Shown one piece after another: positions 2,881 through 31,499 of a stretch of DNA of 52,271 nt. The notes below the pieces were generated by a model. It ran no database searches and was not told the origin of the DNA. It was given only the letters and a program-made list of their open reading frames with translations. This stretch comes from a virus. The stretch is from IMG/VR virus record IMGVR_UViG_3300035070_002934, positions 1-52,271 of that record; one strand, 5' to 3'. How positions within the stretch are numbered: the stretch's first letter is position 1; each line of letters opens with the position of its first letter. A program made the position numbers and the translations under genes.

Positions 2881-2974
2881 TAACGTGGCGTCTACGGCCT
2901 GTGGCAACACTGGATCGGGAGTTTTCCCGGCCGGCTCGCAAGGGCTTAACGGTAGACTAAGTAGGAGTCGATTG

Positions 2975-3121
2975 ATGTTCAAAAACATTCAGGCGCTACG
3001 TGGAAACATAGCGTGCTTTTATCTGGTTGGCGCGTATACAGAAGTTTGCTTTGAGAATGATGACGACAATCAAGGTGGCAAGGTTTTTATTAATGGCGTT
3101 TACCGCTATGCGTGTTACTAA
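2975..3121 (+). CDS. Very small ORF after the last cassette
   Basis: 48 aa from the ATG at 2975, with AGGAG at 2963-2967 at good spacing. The sequence suggests a small beta sheet (IACFYLVGAYTEVCFENDD... KVFINGVYRY). No family recognised. It lies between the broken attC and the excisionase-like gene, so it could be the last cassette ORF or belong to the flank of the prophage. Confidence 0.45.
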   Translation: MFKNIQALRGNIACFYLVGAYTEVCFENDDDNQGGKVFINGVYRYACY

Positions 3122-3213
3122 AAGACGATTAATACCCAGGCGGAAGAAAATGTTTTTGGTTGGGTCGAAACGCTGGATTTTATGGCGTAACATTTTAATG
3201 AGGAGCTGGCAAA

Positions 3214-3483
3214 GTGAATAACATTAACGTACATGATCTAGTAGTCGCACTGCGAGCCGTTGCTGTTGCCGTGCCGTTCGATCAGCAATGGTTTGATCTT
3301 GATCAGCTTGCTGCGTATCTGTGCTACTCAAAAACGCACGTAGAGCAACGGGTTTTAGGTCTGCCCGGATTCCCGGAGTCTGTAAAATGCGGATCAGGCA
3401 AGCGTTGGAGGGCGCGGGATGTTTGCAAGTGGTTGGAGTCGCAGACGGGTTCCTGTCGGCCTCGCAAGTCGGCATCAGGATAA
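3214..3483 (+). CDS. AlpA/excisionase-like DNA-binding protein
   Basis: 89 aa starting at GTG 3214, with GAGGAG about 8 nt upstream. Residues about 25-75 have the pattern of phage AlpA/excisionase winged helix-turn-helix proteins: DLDQLAAYLCYSKTHVEQRV (recognition helix), then GFPESVKCGSGKRWRARDV and CKWLES. Family members bind DNA next to the attachment site and steer the integrase towards excision, or act as activators. Its position just upstream of the integrase and of the TTACGCC repeats supports an excisionase role, but the substrate sites are inferred. Confidence 0.65.
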   Translation: MNNINVHDLVVALRAVAVAVPFDQQWFDLDQLAAYLCYSKTHVEQRVLGLPGFPESVKCGSGKRWRARDVCKWLESQTGSCRPRKSASG

Positions 3484-3488
3484 TTTTT

Positions 3489-3740
3489 TTGCGCCAAATT
3501 TACGCCAAACAGTTTTAAGTGTTTGATTTTTCAATCTTCTTGGTGCCGCCTCTGGGCACCATTATTATTTACGATATATCCCCGCAAAGCCGCATGAACA
3601 CTGGCTTGCAGCCAAACCAGCAAGGATGCTATGGCGTAAAAACTCTATACAAAATCCCCCATTTTTATGTATATTTTGCGACCCGTTACGCCAAATTTAC
3701 GCCCGGCGTTACGCCAACATTTTTATCAGTTACGCCAAGG
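3489..3740 (+). repeat. Direct repeats TTACGCC, putative integrase arm-binding sites
   Basis: The motif (G/T)TTACGCCAA occurs at 3499-3509, 3685-3695, 3708-3718 and 3729-3739. Shorter variants lie at 3489-3498 (GCGCCAAA) and 3696-3704 (TTTACGCCC), and an inverted copy TGGCGTAAA at 3632-3640. All lie in the 267-bp non-coding gap directly upstream of the integrase start. Clustered direct repeats in this place are typical of arm-type sites of tyrosine integrases and would put the attachment core nearby. The core itself cannot be named without the other prophage end. Confidence 0.55.
3542..3560 (+). terminator. Hairpin, possible weak terminator
   Basis: GGTGCC and GGCACC form a perfect 6-bp stem with a 7-nt loop, followed by ATTATTATTT rather than a clean T run. 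It lies 58 bp after the excisionase-like gene and could end its transcript. Confidence 0.35.
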
Positions 3741-3750
3741 ACAAGGACGA

Positions 3751-4719
3751 ATGGCAACAATACGCAAAAGAGGCAAATCATGGCGCGCCGAACTCTGCGT
3801 CAACACTGTGCGCGACTCTCGCACGTTTGACACCAAAAGCGAGGCGATGACATGGGCTGTGGCGAGGGAAGCTGAGCTGAAAGTCGTTGCGCCGGGTGAA
3901 GATGACCATTCAAAGCGCACCGGGCCGGATTTGTTTGGCCGTTATTTAAAAGAGGTAAGCTCAATAAAGCGCGGCGCGAAATGGGAAAAGATCAGGCTGT
4001 TGAAGTTTATGGATTACCACCACTTCAAACGGCCTTTACGCCAGATTACGCCAGATCATATTGCGCACTGGAAACAGGAGCGACTGAAATCTGTCTCACC
4101 GTCAACGGTACGGCGAGAAATGAATCTGTTAAGCCACTGCTTTGAGACTGCGCGCAAAGATTGGCGATGGCTATCTGATAACCCATGCACCGATGTTTCC
4201 AAGCCGCCAGACGGCAAAGCAAGGGATCGGCTGATCAGCAACGATGAAATTACACTCATCCGCCATGCGCTTGGCTGGCCGGTCGATGGAGTTGCAGCAA
4301 CAAAAATGCAGTCGGTCGCCGTCGGATTTATGTTTGCGATTGAAACCGGAATGCGAATGGGGGAAATCTGTGGGCTGACGCATGAGGACATTGTCGGCAG
4401 CGTCGCAACACTCCGGCAAACAAAAAATGGCACAGCCAGGCGCGTACCGCTGTCAAAAAGGGCGGTCGAGCTGCTGTCATTTGTACCTGACCTCTGGGAT
4501 ATGAAGCCGCACCAATTTGAAGCGCTCTTCAGAAAAGGGCGCGACAGATCTGGTGTGGTCGGATTGACCTTCCACGACACGAGGCATGAAGCAATCACGC
4601 GACTCGCCAAAAAACTGGACGTGCTGGAGCTGGCGCGAATGGTCGGGCACAAAAACATCAATCAATTATTGGTTTATTTTAACGCTAAAGCGGAGGATAT
4701 TGCAGACATGCTAGGCTAA
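3751..4719 (+). CDS. int: Tyrosine recombinase, phage integrase
   Basis: 322 aa from the ATG at 3751, chosen because AAGGA precedes it closely and because the product then starts with the usual arm-binding domain (MATIRKRGKSWRAEL). The open frame extends to 3667 but through repeats. A core-binding SAM-like domain covers about 55-155. The catalytic domain carries the full R-K-H-R-H-Y set: R202 (TGMRMGEI), K225, H275 and R278 (FHDTRHE), H300 (MVGHKN) and nucleophile Y309 (VYFN). The length is normal for lambda-type integrases. It catalyses integration and excision of the prophage and marks the left end of the element; attL should lie upstream in the repeat region. Confidence 0.95.
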   Translation: MATIRKRGKSWRAELCVNTVRDSRTFDTKSEAMTWAVAREAELKVVAPGEDDHSKRTGPDLFGRYLKEVSSIKRGAKWEKIRLLKFMDYHHFKRPLRQITPDHIAHWKQERLKSVSPSTVRREMNLLSHCFETARKDWRWLSDNPCTDVSKPPDGKARDRLISNDEITLIRHALGWPVDGVAATKMQSVAVGFMFAIETGMRMGEICGLTHEDIVGSVATLRQTKNGTARRVPLSKRAVELLSFVPDLWDMKPHQFEALFRKGRDRSGVVGLTFHDTRHEAITRLAKKLDVLELARMVGHKNINQLLVYFNAKAEDIADMLG

Positions 4720-5297
4720 ATATGCGTCCAGCATTTTCTATGCCTCACACTACTTATTGCTGCCGGAGATACACCAAACAGAAGGGCAAGTTCAACGCCC
4801 TTTTTATCGGACAACCTAATATAAATTACATCTTCTGCCTTTAGCTTTGATGAATAATGTTCGCTCCCTCTTTTTAATCTCTCTCTCTGCGTTCTTGATG
4901 GGTGCTCATCCCCTCTTTTAGAGCACTGAGAGCGATCATGAGCCCTGTTCTTCCTGATCATATCTTGGATATTTTCTTTTTGCGTACCTGCAAACAAGTG
5001 TGAAGGATTAAAGCAGCTAGGGTTGTCGCACGAATGGCACACATTCAACCCATCATCAATGCATCCATTAAGCATTTCAAATGAAAATCTATGCGCGTAG
5101 TGGTGTTTTGGCTTCCCATTTTCACATGAAACATATTGACCATACCCGGCGCTAGTCAAGCTTTTTGGCCAATTCCAACACCCATCAACCCCATCAAACT
5201 CCTTAGCAATAGAAACAAATCTACATTTCGGGGAGCAGTATGGCGCTTTTCTGGCGTTCCTTGATTCATATTCTTTTTCACATGTATGACACTTCAT
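4716..5297 (-). CDS. Free-standing HNH homing endonuclease (HNH_3 type)
   Basis: 193 aa, ATG at 5297 with GAGG 5 nt upstream. The N-terminus holds a Cys4 zinc motif (CHTC ... CSPKC). The centre has the HNH_3 pattern: GCWNW, GYGQY, AHRFSFE, CHSCDNPSCFNPSHLFAGTQ. The C-terminus ends with a helix-turn-helix (VELALLFGVSPAAISSV). The nuclease core is clearly related to that of the HNH in capsid intron 2 (CDNP.CFNP.HLF.G.Q..NI.D). It overlaps the integrase stop by 4 bp, tail to tail. It is not inside any recognisable gene, so it acts as a free-standing mobile nuclease; its target is unknown. Confidence 0.85.
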   Translation of the reverse strand: MKCHTCEKEYESRNARKAPYCSPKCRFVSIAKEFDGVDGCWNWPKSLTSAGYGQYVSCENGKPKHHYAHRFSFEMLNGCIDDGLNVCHSCDNPSCFNPSHLFAGTQKENIQDMIRKNRAHDRSQCSKRGDEHPSRTQRERLKRGSEHYSSKLKAEDVIYIRLSDKKGVELALLFGVSPAAISSVRHRKCWTHI

Positions 5298-28568: not shown

Positions 28569-28591
28569 AAAACAAAGGGGGCAAAGCCCCC
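28569..28591 (-). terminator. Intrinsic terminator after the major capsid gene
   Basis: A perfect 6-bp stem GGGGGC/GCCCCC with a 3-nt loop (28577-28591) is followed on the minus strand by TTTGTTTT. It begins 7 nt after the capsid stop codon. Confidence 0.85.
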
Positions 28592-28597
28592 AATTGA

Positions 28598-28702
28598 TTA
28601 AGCTGCTGAATCCCACTTAATGATTCGTGAGTTCGCTGCAACGGTATGGCAGATGCCAAAGCCGCCTACATACATCCAGGCCATACCTCTTGACCTTCCA
28701 TA
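28598..28702 (-). CDS. Major capsid protein, exon 3 (C-terminal 34 residues)
   Basis: Encodes YGRSRGMAWMYVGGFG through RIIKWDSAA and the stop. Capsid proteins of the N4 gp56-like family end with the same pattern (DYGRS.G.AW...GGFG...AA..RI.KWDSA), which ties this fragment to exon 2. The exon start at 28702 is set by the requirement for a codon boundary, for a preceding intron-terminal G (28703) and for agreement with the family at the joint (PGD|YGRS). Confidence 0.85.
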   Translation of the reverse strand, partial: YGRSRGMAWMYVGGFGICHTVAANSRIIKWDSAA

Positions 28703-29630
28703 CATACATTCGACGCCATTCGCTACTATGACGTCCGCCCCATAAACTCTTGATACCCTTTCCCGCGCTTCATATCCTTTACGGTATCAACAGGAACACC
28801 TACCAATCTCGCTATCTCAACGGAGTTCAACTTACCGTCTTGCAGCAATCTCGCAACCTTATACGCCTCTTCATCGCTCATTTTGCGCTTAGGGCTTGGC
28901 TGATTCTTCCTGGCGTATCCCGCCTTTATCCTGCTGACATGAGAAGGCGAGAGGCCTGTTAGCTCGCTAACCTTTCTGCCAGTCCTGCCTTCATCAAGAA
29001 GGTGCTTAACTTCTCTAATCTGCTCGTCAGAATATTTGCTAAGGTTACTCTCTGTTCCTGAGAAACCTCTATTCTTGTCGAAGCAGTCTTTGATGTTGTC
29101 GCTTTGAGACCCAAGGAATAAGTGGTCTGGATTAAAGCACTTAGGGTTGTCGCAGTGATGGCAAACAAAGACATCATCAGGTATCAGCTCACCCTTGAAT
29201 GCGGTGTAAGCTGCTCGATGAGCCATAATCTTTTTGCCCTCAAACACGCCGGGTATTCTAAATGATCCATACCCAATGGTTGTGGACCCTTGCCACTCCC
29301 AACAACCTTTTTTGCTTATCTCCATCTTTGTTACTAAGAGTTTTAGGACTGCCTCACGTTTCCATGAGGATTGGACTATATCTTCACCCAATCTATTAAA
29401 TTGGGGCTGGGCGCTTCCATCCTGCTTAGGATGTACTCTACTAACTGCACTTGTTGATTGTGCGTTTTCGATAGTCTCTGAACGTTCCCCTTTCGGGGCT
29501 TCGCTGCTGATTGTCATCTTATAATACCTCTCAATACCTCGATTGAGTCCATATTATACATTAGAGTTCCAGCAATTCACCCAGTTTTTAGCATTAGATC
29601 ACTCTAATGGGAGACCACAGTATAGGTCGA
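28703..29630 (-). ncRNA. Group I intron 2 in the major capsid gene
   Basis: 928 nt. The 5' exon end GGAGAU pairs with GUCUCC inside the intron (about 29610-29615), giving P1 with the obligatory U.G at the splice site. CUGUG just before it can pair with UAUGG of exon 3 (P10, wobble-rich). P segment GUGAAUUGCUGG at 29569-29580, Q segment around AAUCAGCAGCGAAGC, and P7 from GACUA (29472-29476) and UAGUC (29374-29378) are all present. The intron ends in G at 28703. It carries an HNH gene in sense orientation whose frame runs through the catalytic core. Splicing joins exon 2 to exon 3 in frame. Confidence 0.85.
28726..29517 (-). CDS. HNH homing endonuclease of capsid intron 2
   Basis: The frame from ATG 29517 (GAGG 9 nt upstream) encodes 263 aa, but its first about 60 residues are translated from the intron core itself. 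The protein may instead begin at ATG 29325 (199 aa, MEISKKGCWEW). The HNH_3 core shows GCWEWQG, GYGSF, AHRAAY, CHHCDNPKCFNPDHLFLGSQ. Two helix-turn-helix units follow (SELTGLSPSHVSRIKAG and VEIARLVGVPVDTVKDM), which would read the target DNA. It probably cuts intron-less capsid alleles and drives spread of the intron. The stop lies 23 nt before the 3' splice site. Its nuclease core resembles that of the HNH gene at 4716-5297. Confidence 0.85.
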   Translation of the reverse strand: MTISSEAPKGERSETIENAQSTSAVSRVHPKQDGSAQPQFNRLGEDIVQSSWKREAVLKLLVTKMEISKKGCWEWQGSTTIGYGSFRIPGVFEGKKIMAHRAAYTAFKGELIPDDVFVCHHCDNPKCFNPDHLFLGSQSDNIKDCFDKNRGFSGTESNLSKYSDEQIREVKHLLDEGRTGRKVSELTGLSPSHVSRIKAGYARKNQPSPKRKMSDEEAYKVARLLQDGKLNSVEIARLVGVPVDTVKDMKRGKGYQEFMGRTS

Positions 29631-30200
29631 ATCTCCAGGTAACTTAGCTCTGATCTGCTCTGGCTCGACAATCGCCTCCGCCACGGTGTCAGCGCCGAAG
29701 AAGAAGGCCGCATCAGACTTAGCGTTATTCCAGGCTTCATAGGCGATATTGGTCTGCGTGAAGAAACGAATTCCCTCATAACGACCGATTTCACCCGCTG
29801 CAATCCGACTAAAACCAGATTCGATATAGAAACTGATAGCTTCCAGATCGTCCTTAAAGGCGCGGAAGGTTGACGGACGCGCCAATGCACAGTAGTTCTC
29901 ACCGTCATAAGGCGTGATATTGCGCTCTGCCATCGCATCAGCGATTAACTTCACATGCTCTTTTCGCAATGCTACGTTGTTGGTGACACCGCCTGCCGTG
30001 CCATCAGTATTAATAGCACTGATCGTGGTGGCAGAATCACCCGTACCGCCTGCGGTCACTGTCAACTTGGTTTTGTTGAACTCAGTGTAAGCCGCGGCGT
30101 CCAGCGTTTTACAAGCATCATTCTTCAACACCTTGTCAATCACACGCTCGCAAGAGTGCTTAGATAGGATATCGACCTTGCGAGTGTAGGGAACAGAGTT
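29631..30200 (-). CDS. Major capsid protein, exon 2 (central 190 residues)
   Basis: Encodes NSVPYTRKVDILSKHSCERV through IRAKLPGD. The sequence matches the N4 gp56-type capsid family (ALARPSTFRAFKDDLE, GEIGRYEGIRFFTQTNI, FFFGADTVAEAIVEPEQIR). The frame alone would read 3 codons to the left (ATG 30203) and to a stop at 29604, but both extensions are intron sequence. Joining 31227-31499, 29631-30200 and 28598-28702 yields one uninterrupted 315-aa protein, a normal length for the family, that forms the icosahedral shell of the head. All joints fall on codon boundaries. Confidence 0.9.
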
Positions 30201-30489
30201 CATTGTGTTATCGCGGCTTTTTTAATTGCACCGCTTCTGCATGTTTCCATGCAGTTCAGACTATATCTTCGCTTTCGCGTCCCGCACTCTTGGAGCTATA
30301 CCGTCCACTTGGGACTCCATGCTCTAGTCGTTGAACCTTCAGCCTATTGCTAGGTAGCTTGGCTGCTGATTGCCCAATCCAAACAATTTTCAAACATTCA
30401 CGCCTGCCGTTACCAGCTACGTTGTAGTTTATTTGGCTCTAAGGGTGTCCCAGCAATTCACGGGATTTTCTACAATTCCATGTTTCGTG

Positions 30490-30517
30490 TATAATGTTCC
30501 GATATACGAAATGGAGG
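30490..30517 (+). promoter_or_regulatory. Promoter -10 box and ribosome binding site of the antisense HNH gene
   Basis: A perfect TATAAT lies at 30490-30495 on the + strand with only a poor -35 (TTCTAC at 30468-30473). GGAGG at 30513-30517 precedes the ATG at 30523 by 5 nt. This allows expression of the nuclease independently of, and antisense to, the capsid transcript. Confidence 0.6.
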
Positions 30518-30522
30518 CCATA

Positions 30523-31203
30523 ATGGGTGTATCAAAAAAGCAACAAGAACGAGTTAGCCAGATCTGCAAGTGTGGATGCAATCAACAATTCATGGCTTTC
30601 CCAGCGTACCGCCCCAAATCAGAGGGTGGAGGGCTGCGAGTGCCTGAATATAAACGAGGGCATCACCCAACAAGCAAAGCAAAGTTAAGCAAAGACGTGC
30701 CGTGGAATAAGGGTCTAACCAAGAATGATCACCCATCCATTGCGAAAATGGGGTTTCAGCCTGGCCATGAACCATACAGCGACTGGTCTAAGGTTAACGA
30801 TAAGCTAGCAAATGATCCTAAAATTAGAGAAAGATGGCTTAAAGCAAAAAAAGGTCAGATCCCTTGGAACTCTGGGCTGACCAAAGACCAATATGCCACC
30901 GACTTTCCTGTTGGTGAAGATCACGGCAACTGGAAGGGTGGTCACCGGGGCGTGGTTGATACCGCCGCCTGGAAATCGCTTAGACTCAGCATTCAGCGAA
31001 GAGACAAATTTACCTGTCAAGAATGCGGAGATAAAAACTACAAAGGGCGCGGTTCACGCATCAGGCTTGAAGTTCATCATATTCAAGCTTTGTGTGATCG
31101 ACCAGATCTTGCGTTGGAGCCATCCAACTTAATTCTTCTTTGTCACTCCTGTCATGTAAAAACACACAATTATGGCACTAAGGCTTGGCAAAATAAGTCT
31201 TAG
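30523..31203 (+). CDS. HNH homing endonuclease, antisense inside capsid intron 1
   Basis: 226 aa from the ATG at 30523 (GGAGG 5 nt upstream). The N-terminus has a Cys motif (CKCGCNQQF) and NUMOD-like basic segments (EYKRGHHPTSKAKL, WNKGLTKNDHPS, WNSGLTKDQ). The C-terminal nuclease is a canonical HNH: RRDKFTCQECG, EVHHIQALCDRP, NLILLCHSCHVKTHN, with the zinc cysteines in CxxC pairs. It belongs to a different HNH group from those at 28726 and 4716. It reads against the capsid gene, and its stop lies 24 nt from the 5' splice site. Likely role: intron homing. Opposite orientation to the host intron is uncommon. Confidence 0.88.
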   Translation: MGVSKKQQERVSQICKCGCNQQFMAFPAYRPKSEGGGLRVPEYKRGHHPTSKAKLSKDVPWNKGLTKNDHPSIAKMGFQPGHEPYSDWSKVNDKLANDPKIRERWLKAKKGQIPWNSGLTKDQYATDFPVGEDHGNWKGGHRGVVDTAAWKSLRLSIQRRDKFTCQECGDKNYKGRGSRIRLEVHHIQALCDRPDLALEPSNLILLCHSCHVKTHNYGTKAWQNKS

Positions 31204-31226
31204 TGAACTGTAGCGGCAACTAATTT

Positions 31227-31499
31227 ACCGTACTCAGTAATCGTCATACTTTCTTGGGTGATAGTGAAATTGGTTTCAGGCATTGCGTCTGTTTCGGGGA
31301 GCGCTGCGCCTTGGGTTGCTACATCGCTGTAGACGTTCCAAGAGAAGGTGTCACCTGTGCCTTTGTCTTTCGCATCTTCCACATCGCAGAAGTTACGGAA
31401 ACGGGTCAGGGGTTGAAGTTTGGTACGGAGAGTGTCGGACAATTGGTCCGAGTACATGAATCCGCCCAGGGTATCGGTAGTCCATAATTGGCCTGCCAT
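31227..31499 (-). CDS. Major capsid protein, exon 1 (N-terminal 91 residues)
   Basis: Starts at ATG 31499 with GGAG about 9 nt upstream and encodes MAGQLWTTDTLGGFMYSDQL through TITEYG. Reading on into the intron would add eight residues and a stop. The exon boundary at 31227 is fixed by the U.G pair with the internal guide and by family agreement at the joint (ITEYG|NSVPY). The N-terminal segment is the flexible arm and first helix of the capsid fold. The scaffold gene lies just upstream. Confidence 0.9.

Follow-up and report, generated by a model that had tools for sequence, protein, structure and literature searches.

Two group I introns in a phage major capsid gene, one with its HNH nuclease gene in antisense orientation

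The major capsid protein (MCP) gene of a virus contig (IMG/VR record IMGVR_UViG_3300035070_002934; the whole analysed stretch of 52,271 nt is called the window) appears in the DNA as three separate ORFs, with stop codons in both gaps. Is this a broken gene, or are the ORFs exons of one gene that is restored by splicing? An earlier examination of the letters and ORFs of this DNA (the sequence-only reading) had proposed the latter, with a group I intron and a nuclease gene in each gap.

The three exons lie on the minus strand at 31227..31499 (exon 1, codons 1–91, with the 3′ end GAG TAC GGT), 29631..30200 (exon 2, codons 92–281) and 28598..28702 (exon 3, codons 282–315 and the stop). Spliced, these 273 + 570 + 105 nt encode 315 aa plus the stop in frame, and both joints, EYG|NSVP between exons 1 and 2 and PGD|YGRS between exons 2 and 3, are in phase 0. 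The exon coordinates, the protein length and the joints given in the sequence-only reading are exact to the base, and intronless relatives are colinear with the spliced product: full-length relatives are 53–76% identical to it, and uninterrupted ones at 55–76% identity align gap-free across both joints. The spliced protein matches Phage_capsid_4 (PF25209, 30.9 bits with a cut-off of 27) and phrog_1357 (E 1e-13); in 57 phage records a homologous capsid has a single place spanning at least 80% of the query. A tblastn search of the spliced protein against the whole contig, which may itself be incomplete, found the three exons only, and hence no intact second capsid gene, the observation that the earlier reading had named as telling against it. 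Directly 3′ of the MCP stop is a terminator-like hairpin (28575..28591, minus strand; a pattern match).

A search with the Rfam group I model RF00028, proposed earlier as a check, matched both gaps over the full length of the model (positions 1–253) with scores above the curated cut-off of 50 bits. Intron 1 (30201..31226, minus strand, 1026 nt) occupies site 1, EYG|NSVP, and its match at 30237-30543 (minus strand) scores 75.1 bits (E 2e-17). Intron 2 (28703..29630, minus strand, 928 nt) occupies site 2, PGD|YGRS, and its match at 29352..29633 (minus strand) scores 100.1 bits (E 8e-25). Judged by these scores, both gaps are group I introns. The conserved ribozyme core of intron 1, P3–P9, was placed at 30237..30470 (minus strand) by the RF00028 match and a consensus fold; the order of elements in this intron is P1 at the 5′ end, an antisense nuclease gene, P2, the P3–P9 core and the terminal G. 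The consensus fold of five cores related to intron 1 has compensatory changes in 31 of 57 pairs.

The group I signature that had been described for each gap was recovered with one reservation. Both introns have a U.G pair at the 5′ site and a terminal G, as do their same-site relatives, and their P7 strands (GACUA/UAGUC) are identical. In P1, exon CGGU pairs with guide GCCG in intron 1, and exon GGAGAU with guide GUCUCC in intron 2. The reservation concerns P10, which is AGUU/AACU in intron 1 but weak, with mostly G-U pairs, in intron 2. From these elements we would expect both introns to be spliced in vivo.

Three ORFs parted by gaps with stop codons could also be the remains of a pseudogene, decayed and broken by unrelated insertions, in a defective phage. 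We consider this very improbable, given that the gaps are complete group I ribozymes whose ends fall exactly at codon junctions of intact relatives, and that the nuclease ORFs in the two introns are both intact. Moreover, all three exons are under strong purifying selection: in comparison with the capsid gene of L018, pN is 0.16 and pS 0.86 in exon 1, 0.16 and 0.79 in exon 2, and 0.18 and 0.65 in exon 3. The best-supported reading is an MCP gene of three exons and two group I introns, each with an HNH nuclease gene.

That each intron has a nuclease gene of its own, as had been stated, is borne out by domain matches to PF01844 in intron 1 and PF13392 in intron 2; the antisense strand of the first gene had gone unnoticed. 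This gene, HEG1, encodes a 226-aa HNH homing endonuclease and lies between P1 and P2 at 30523..31203 on the plus strand, antisense to both capsid gene and intron, with an SD-like GGAGG 5′ of its ATG. GC-rich coding DNA often holds antisense ORFs, and some relatives show long shadow ORFs on the sense strand; it could be argued that the HEG1 frame arose by chance and that what the intron really contains is something different. We find this scarcely credible in view of the HNH match (PF01844, E 9e-9) and of homologues in 13 other distinct loci (most of them full-length at 48–64% identity, four at 31–38%), whose orientation is always antisense. Among eight family members, divergence at codon positions 1, 2 and 3 of the antisense frame is 0.36, 0.31 and 0.62, so that there is twice as much variation at third positions as at the other two, and all seven aligned members share the HNH residues H186, N202 and H211 and the zinc CxxC pairs without variation. 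By this comparison of sequences the antisense frame is under purifying selection and is a real gene. Family membership suggests that HEG1 and the nuclease of intron 2, HEG2, are active enzymes.

A single-sequence HEG1 search of viral contigs gave partial matches at 30–39% only and did not reveal the family. A capsid-profile search of bacterial genomes yielded L187 (an Aromatoleum anaerobium LuFRes1 prophage) and L188 (a Deltaproteobacteria MAG), in both of which the capsid is broken at the site-1 region around an antisense HEG1 homologue; profile searches with the nuclease, in which these two were used, yielded L204–L209 and L211–L218. Once identical contigs were merged (L188=L208; L212/L213/L214), there were 14 distinct carriers, the window included. 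In all 14 the nuclease gene is antisense and within the capsid gene, at one of two sites. Eight carriers (the window, L187, L204, L205, L206, L209, L211 and L213) have it at site 1 (...GGU|AAY, after the codon before NSVP), and six at site 1b (AAY UCN GU|N CCN), exactly 8 nt downstream. Rfam calls a group I ribozyme in every carrier but L207, in which P7-like elements are present, and L217; the match in L218 is to its second intron, not to the site-1b intron. In L188 (2890-3666) a tandem duplication of ~29 nt close to the start apparently shifts the frame of the antisense nuclease gene, which is possibly a decaying copy.

The 5′ exon ends in CGGU in most site-1 copies and in several 1b copies, and the guide GCCG is found at both sites. 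Where the exon end is GGGU the guide is GCCC (L209, L213), and where it is CCGU the guide is GCGG (L188, L215, L217). P10, read by eye, shifts with the site, from AGUU/AACU at site 1 to GGA/UCC and GGGA/UCCC at 1b. This comparison, in which P1 and exon covary at site 1 as well as at 1b, speaks strongly for the splice sites as predicted; the guide fits both places, which hints at a way for the intron to shift by 8 nt. The divergence of HEG1 follows that of the capsid (Spearman 0.59; mean identities 56% and 59%), which points to long residence and led us to reject the idea that intron 1 had swept recently.

Being antisense, HEG1 would not be translated from the capsid transcript and would thus need a promoter of its own. 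A candidate −10 box, TATAAT, is located approximately at 30490..30495 (plus strand) in the DNA of the P2 hairpin, with no good −35 box. It emerged by family comparison; a scan for consensus promoters did not list a HEG1 promoter in the window. TATAAT or a one-base variant (TATAGT, TATCAT) stands 5′ of the nuclease start in nine of the 14 family members, and in L212–L214 it is paired with a TTGACT box at 17 nt. As the box is in P2 hairpin DNA, RNA pairing may account for part of its conservation. Most likely, HEG1 would be expressed from this putative promoter and the ribosome-binding site after it.

Would the plus-strand RNA end with HEG1? The HEG1 stop is only 24 nt from MCP exon 1, and a pattern scan found no strong plus-strand terminator 3′ of HEG1 within intron 1. 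The RNA might continue into exon 1 and, as a cis-antisense RNA, keep either the capsid gene or the ribozyme inactive at an early stage of infection, and the antisense order, fixed in 14 phages over deep divergence, agrees with such a role. However, common descent of one intron–nuclease unit explains the fixed orientation equally well, and we regard regulation of this kind as rather improbable.

HEG2 (28726..29517, minus strand), a 263-aa HNH_3 + HTH homing endonuclease gene (PF13392), is in sense orientation. Its frame opens inside the ribozyme core, in the Q element, and shares its first ~55 codons with P6-P7-P3-P8. In L098, a divergent phage contig, the identical codon junction (DD|YGRS) holds a group I intron, and the sense gene in it encodes a nuclease 54% identical to HEG2 over its length. 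P1 at this site is GGAGAU/GUCUCC in the window versus GACGAU/GUCGUC in L098, a difference of two compensatory changes. Both nucleases have the same MTISS start at an ATG in the Q element of the core; their first ~55 residues are poorly conserved, with the frame still open. One capsid gene thus holds opposite solutions, an antisense HEG1 and a sense HEG2 running through the ribozyme core, which are comparable in one transcript. The fixed antisense orientation bears on a known question, how a homing intron can express its nuclease while keeping ribosomes from interfering with the ribozyme or with the host gene.

Further introns were found in this capsid family. A site after GMAW + 1 nt is used in L006/L007/L010 and L013 and by the second introns of L205, L209 and L211; a site near codon 261 in L185 and by the second intron of L206; and a site near codon 190 in L216, while the second capsid intron of L218 lies near the capsid C-terminus. 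The family is a hotspot of introns, with at least five positions (codons ~91/94, ~190, ~261, 281 and 290) and often at least two introns per gene; its intron frequency has to be read with the biased sampling of searches that rank intact capsids first. In L211 (1145-3759, minus strand) there are three apparent capsid insertions, at codon 35, site 1 and site 3; the codon-35 insertion, of ~240 nt, has P7-like GACUA/UAGUC and no Rfam call. When 14 ribozyme cores were placed in a tree, the two from site 2 grouped with good support (98/94), the site-3 pair L010/L013 with 86/82 and the site-1 cores more weakly with 80/92. With modest overall support, the ribozymes cluster loosely by insertion site, which fits site-specific homing lineages.

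The capsid intron of L013 (2441-3387; Vibrio phage 1.232.O, MG592596) is without a nuclease, and just 3′ of the last exon (2902-3387) is a homologue of the nuclease housed in the same-site intron of L010. This looks like a stage of collaborative homing in which intron and nuclease are apart, before or after joining. In the same phage the unannotated intron cuts the deposited capsid protein, AUR96742.1, short at 290 aa. Public records thus contain capsid genes misannotated as truncated, as the sequence-only reading had expected of a gene so easily taken for a broken one.

In the window, the MCP gene has an SU10-type portal gene, a terminase gene and tail genes as neighbours, and an integrase gene lies at 3667-4719; together these indicate a temperate tailed phage. 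The DNA had earlier been called a prophage, which the integrase gene makes plausible; the record itself is a virus contig from which integration is not evident. A free-standing HNH_3 nuclease gene (phrog_59; 4716-5297, minus strand), with no group I match near it, abuts the integrase gene. A quarter of the contig (6013-19242, minus strand) is a single gene for 4409 aa with DarB-like antirestriction and methyltransferase-helicase profiles.

It is very likely, in our view, that a temperate tailed-phage MCP gene is here interrupted by two mobile self-splicing introns and gives one coat protein, with homing by HNH nucleases and with an antisense HEG1 under its own promoter. Each intron would fold in the late capsid transcript and excise itself by means of an external guanosine, with P1 as the guide (CGGU/GCCG in intron 1, GGAGAU/GUCUCC in intron 2), and translation would yield the 315-aa coat protein. 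Each HNH nuclease would presumably cut uninterrupted capsid alleles of co-infecting phages, into which the intron would then be copied; such cleavage and homing are what gene content suggests. The lineage of intron 1 is dedicated to one stretch of capsid codons, with its nuclease gene antisense between P1 and P2.

A more specific proposal, which we offer tentatively and think possible rather than probable, is that in this lineage, bound to one codon stretch, the nuclease gene is obligatorily antisense with its promoter in P2 hairpin DNA. The nuclease would then be made early, independently of the late capsid transcript; the antisense RNA may curb the capsid until late; and the site could shift by 8 nt since CGGU stands at both places and GCCG pairs with it equally well.

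Are antisense nucleases usual in phage introns? We rejected this idea after a survey of annotated phage introns, in which 13 cases had a gene on the same strand next to the core and none was clearly antisense; the survey is small and relies on record annotation, with many genes annotated as hypothetical only. Several introns per capsid gene are already known. In the literature searched, which included few subscription papers, no article described a family of phage introns whose nuclease is invariably antisense, and the present family was previously unremarked there. The sequence-only reading had called two introns in a capsid gene unusual; the two are real, but the cases of LittleE and a crAss-like phage are published, and seven of the 14 site-1/1b carriers have one or more further capsid introns.

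Splicing of the capsid intron of mycobacteriophage LittleE was proven by RT-PCR and N-terminal sequencing, and, as in the window, the major capsid gene holds a group I-like intron with a nuclease-like ORF on the bottom strand (PMC3706429). Unlike the window, LittleE has one intron, an unrelated HK97-type capsid and a LAGLIDADG-like ORF rather than an HNH one, and it is a single case as against the site-1/1b family of 14 at one site. A capsid intron of Tuc2009 is cited in the same article (PMC3706429). The MCP gene of the crAss-like Zeta group (OLRF01000054) resembles that of the window in that several group I introns divide a single capsid gene, there into five fragments, with group I intron protein domains in three of the four gaps; it belongs to another phage group, and its frames are described as co-directed, an antisense nuclease not being described there (PMC7886860). 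The MCP intron of Bacillus phage SP-15 (KT624200) has an endonuclease gene and a core 77% identical to that of intron 1 over 143 nt; it differs from intron 1 in its T4-type gp23 capsid, its other site and the sense orientation of its nuclease. HEG2 shares its domain make-up with HNH_3 + HTH homing endonucleases of the I-HmuI / phrog_59 type. I-HmuI is located in SPO1-type DNA polymerase introns, unlike HEG2, which is located at MCP site 2. Didymium I-DirII is a His-Cys nuclease. As cited in PMC3073962, it comes from the antisense strand of a nuclear rDNA group I intron and has its own promoter, as predicted for HEG1, and it differs in its setting, which is eukaryotic rDNA with a Pol II promoter and a spliceosomal intron. 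T4 segD is, like HEG1, a homing-type nuclease gene antisense beside the major capsid gene (PMC2988022); unlike HEG1, it is a free-standing GIY-YIG gene without an intron.
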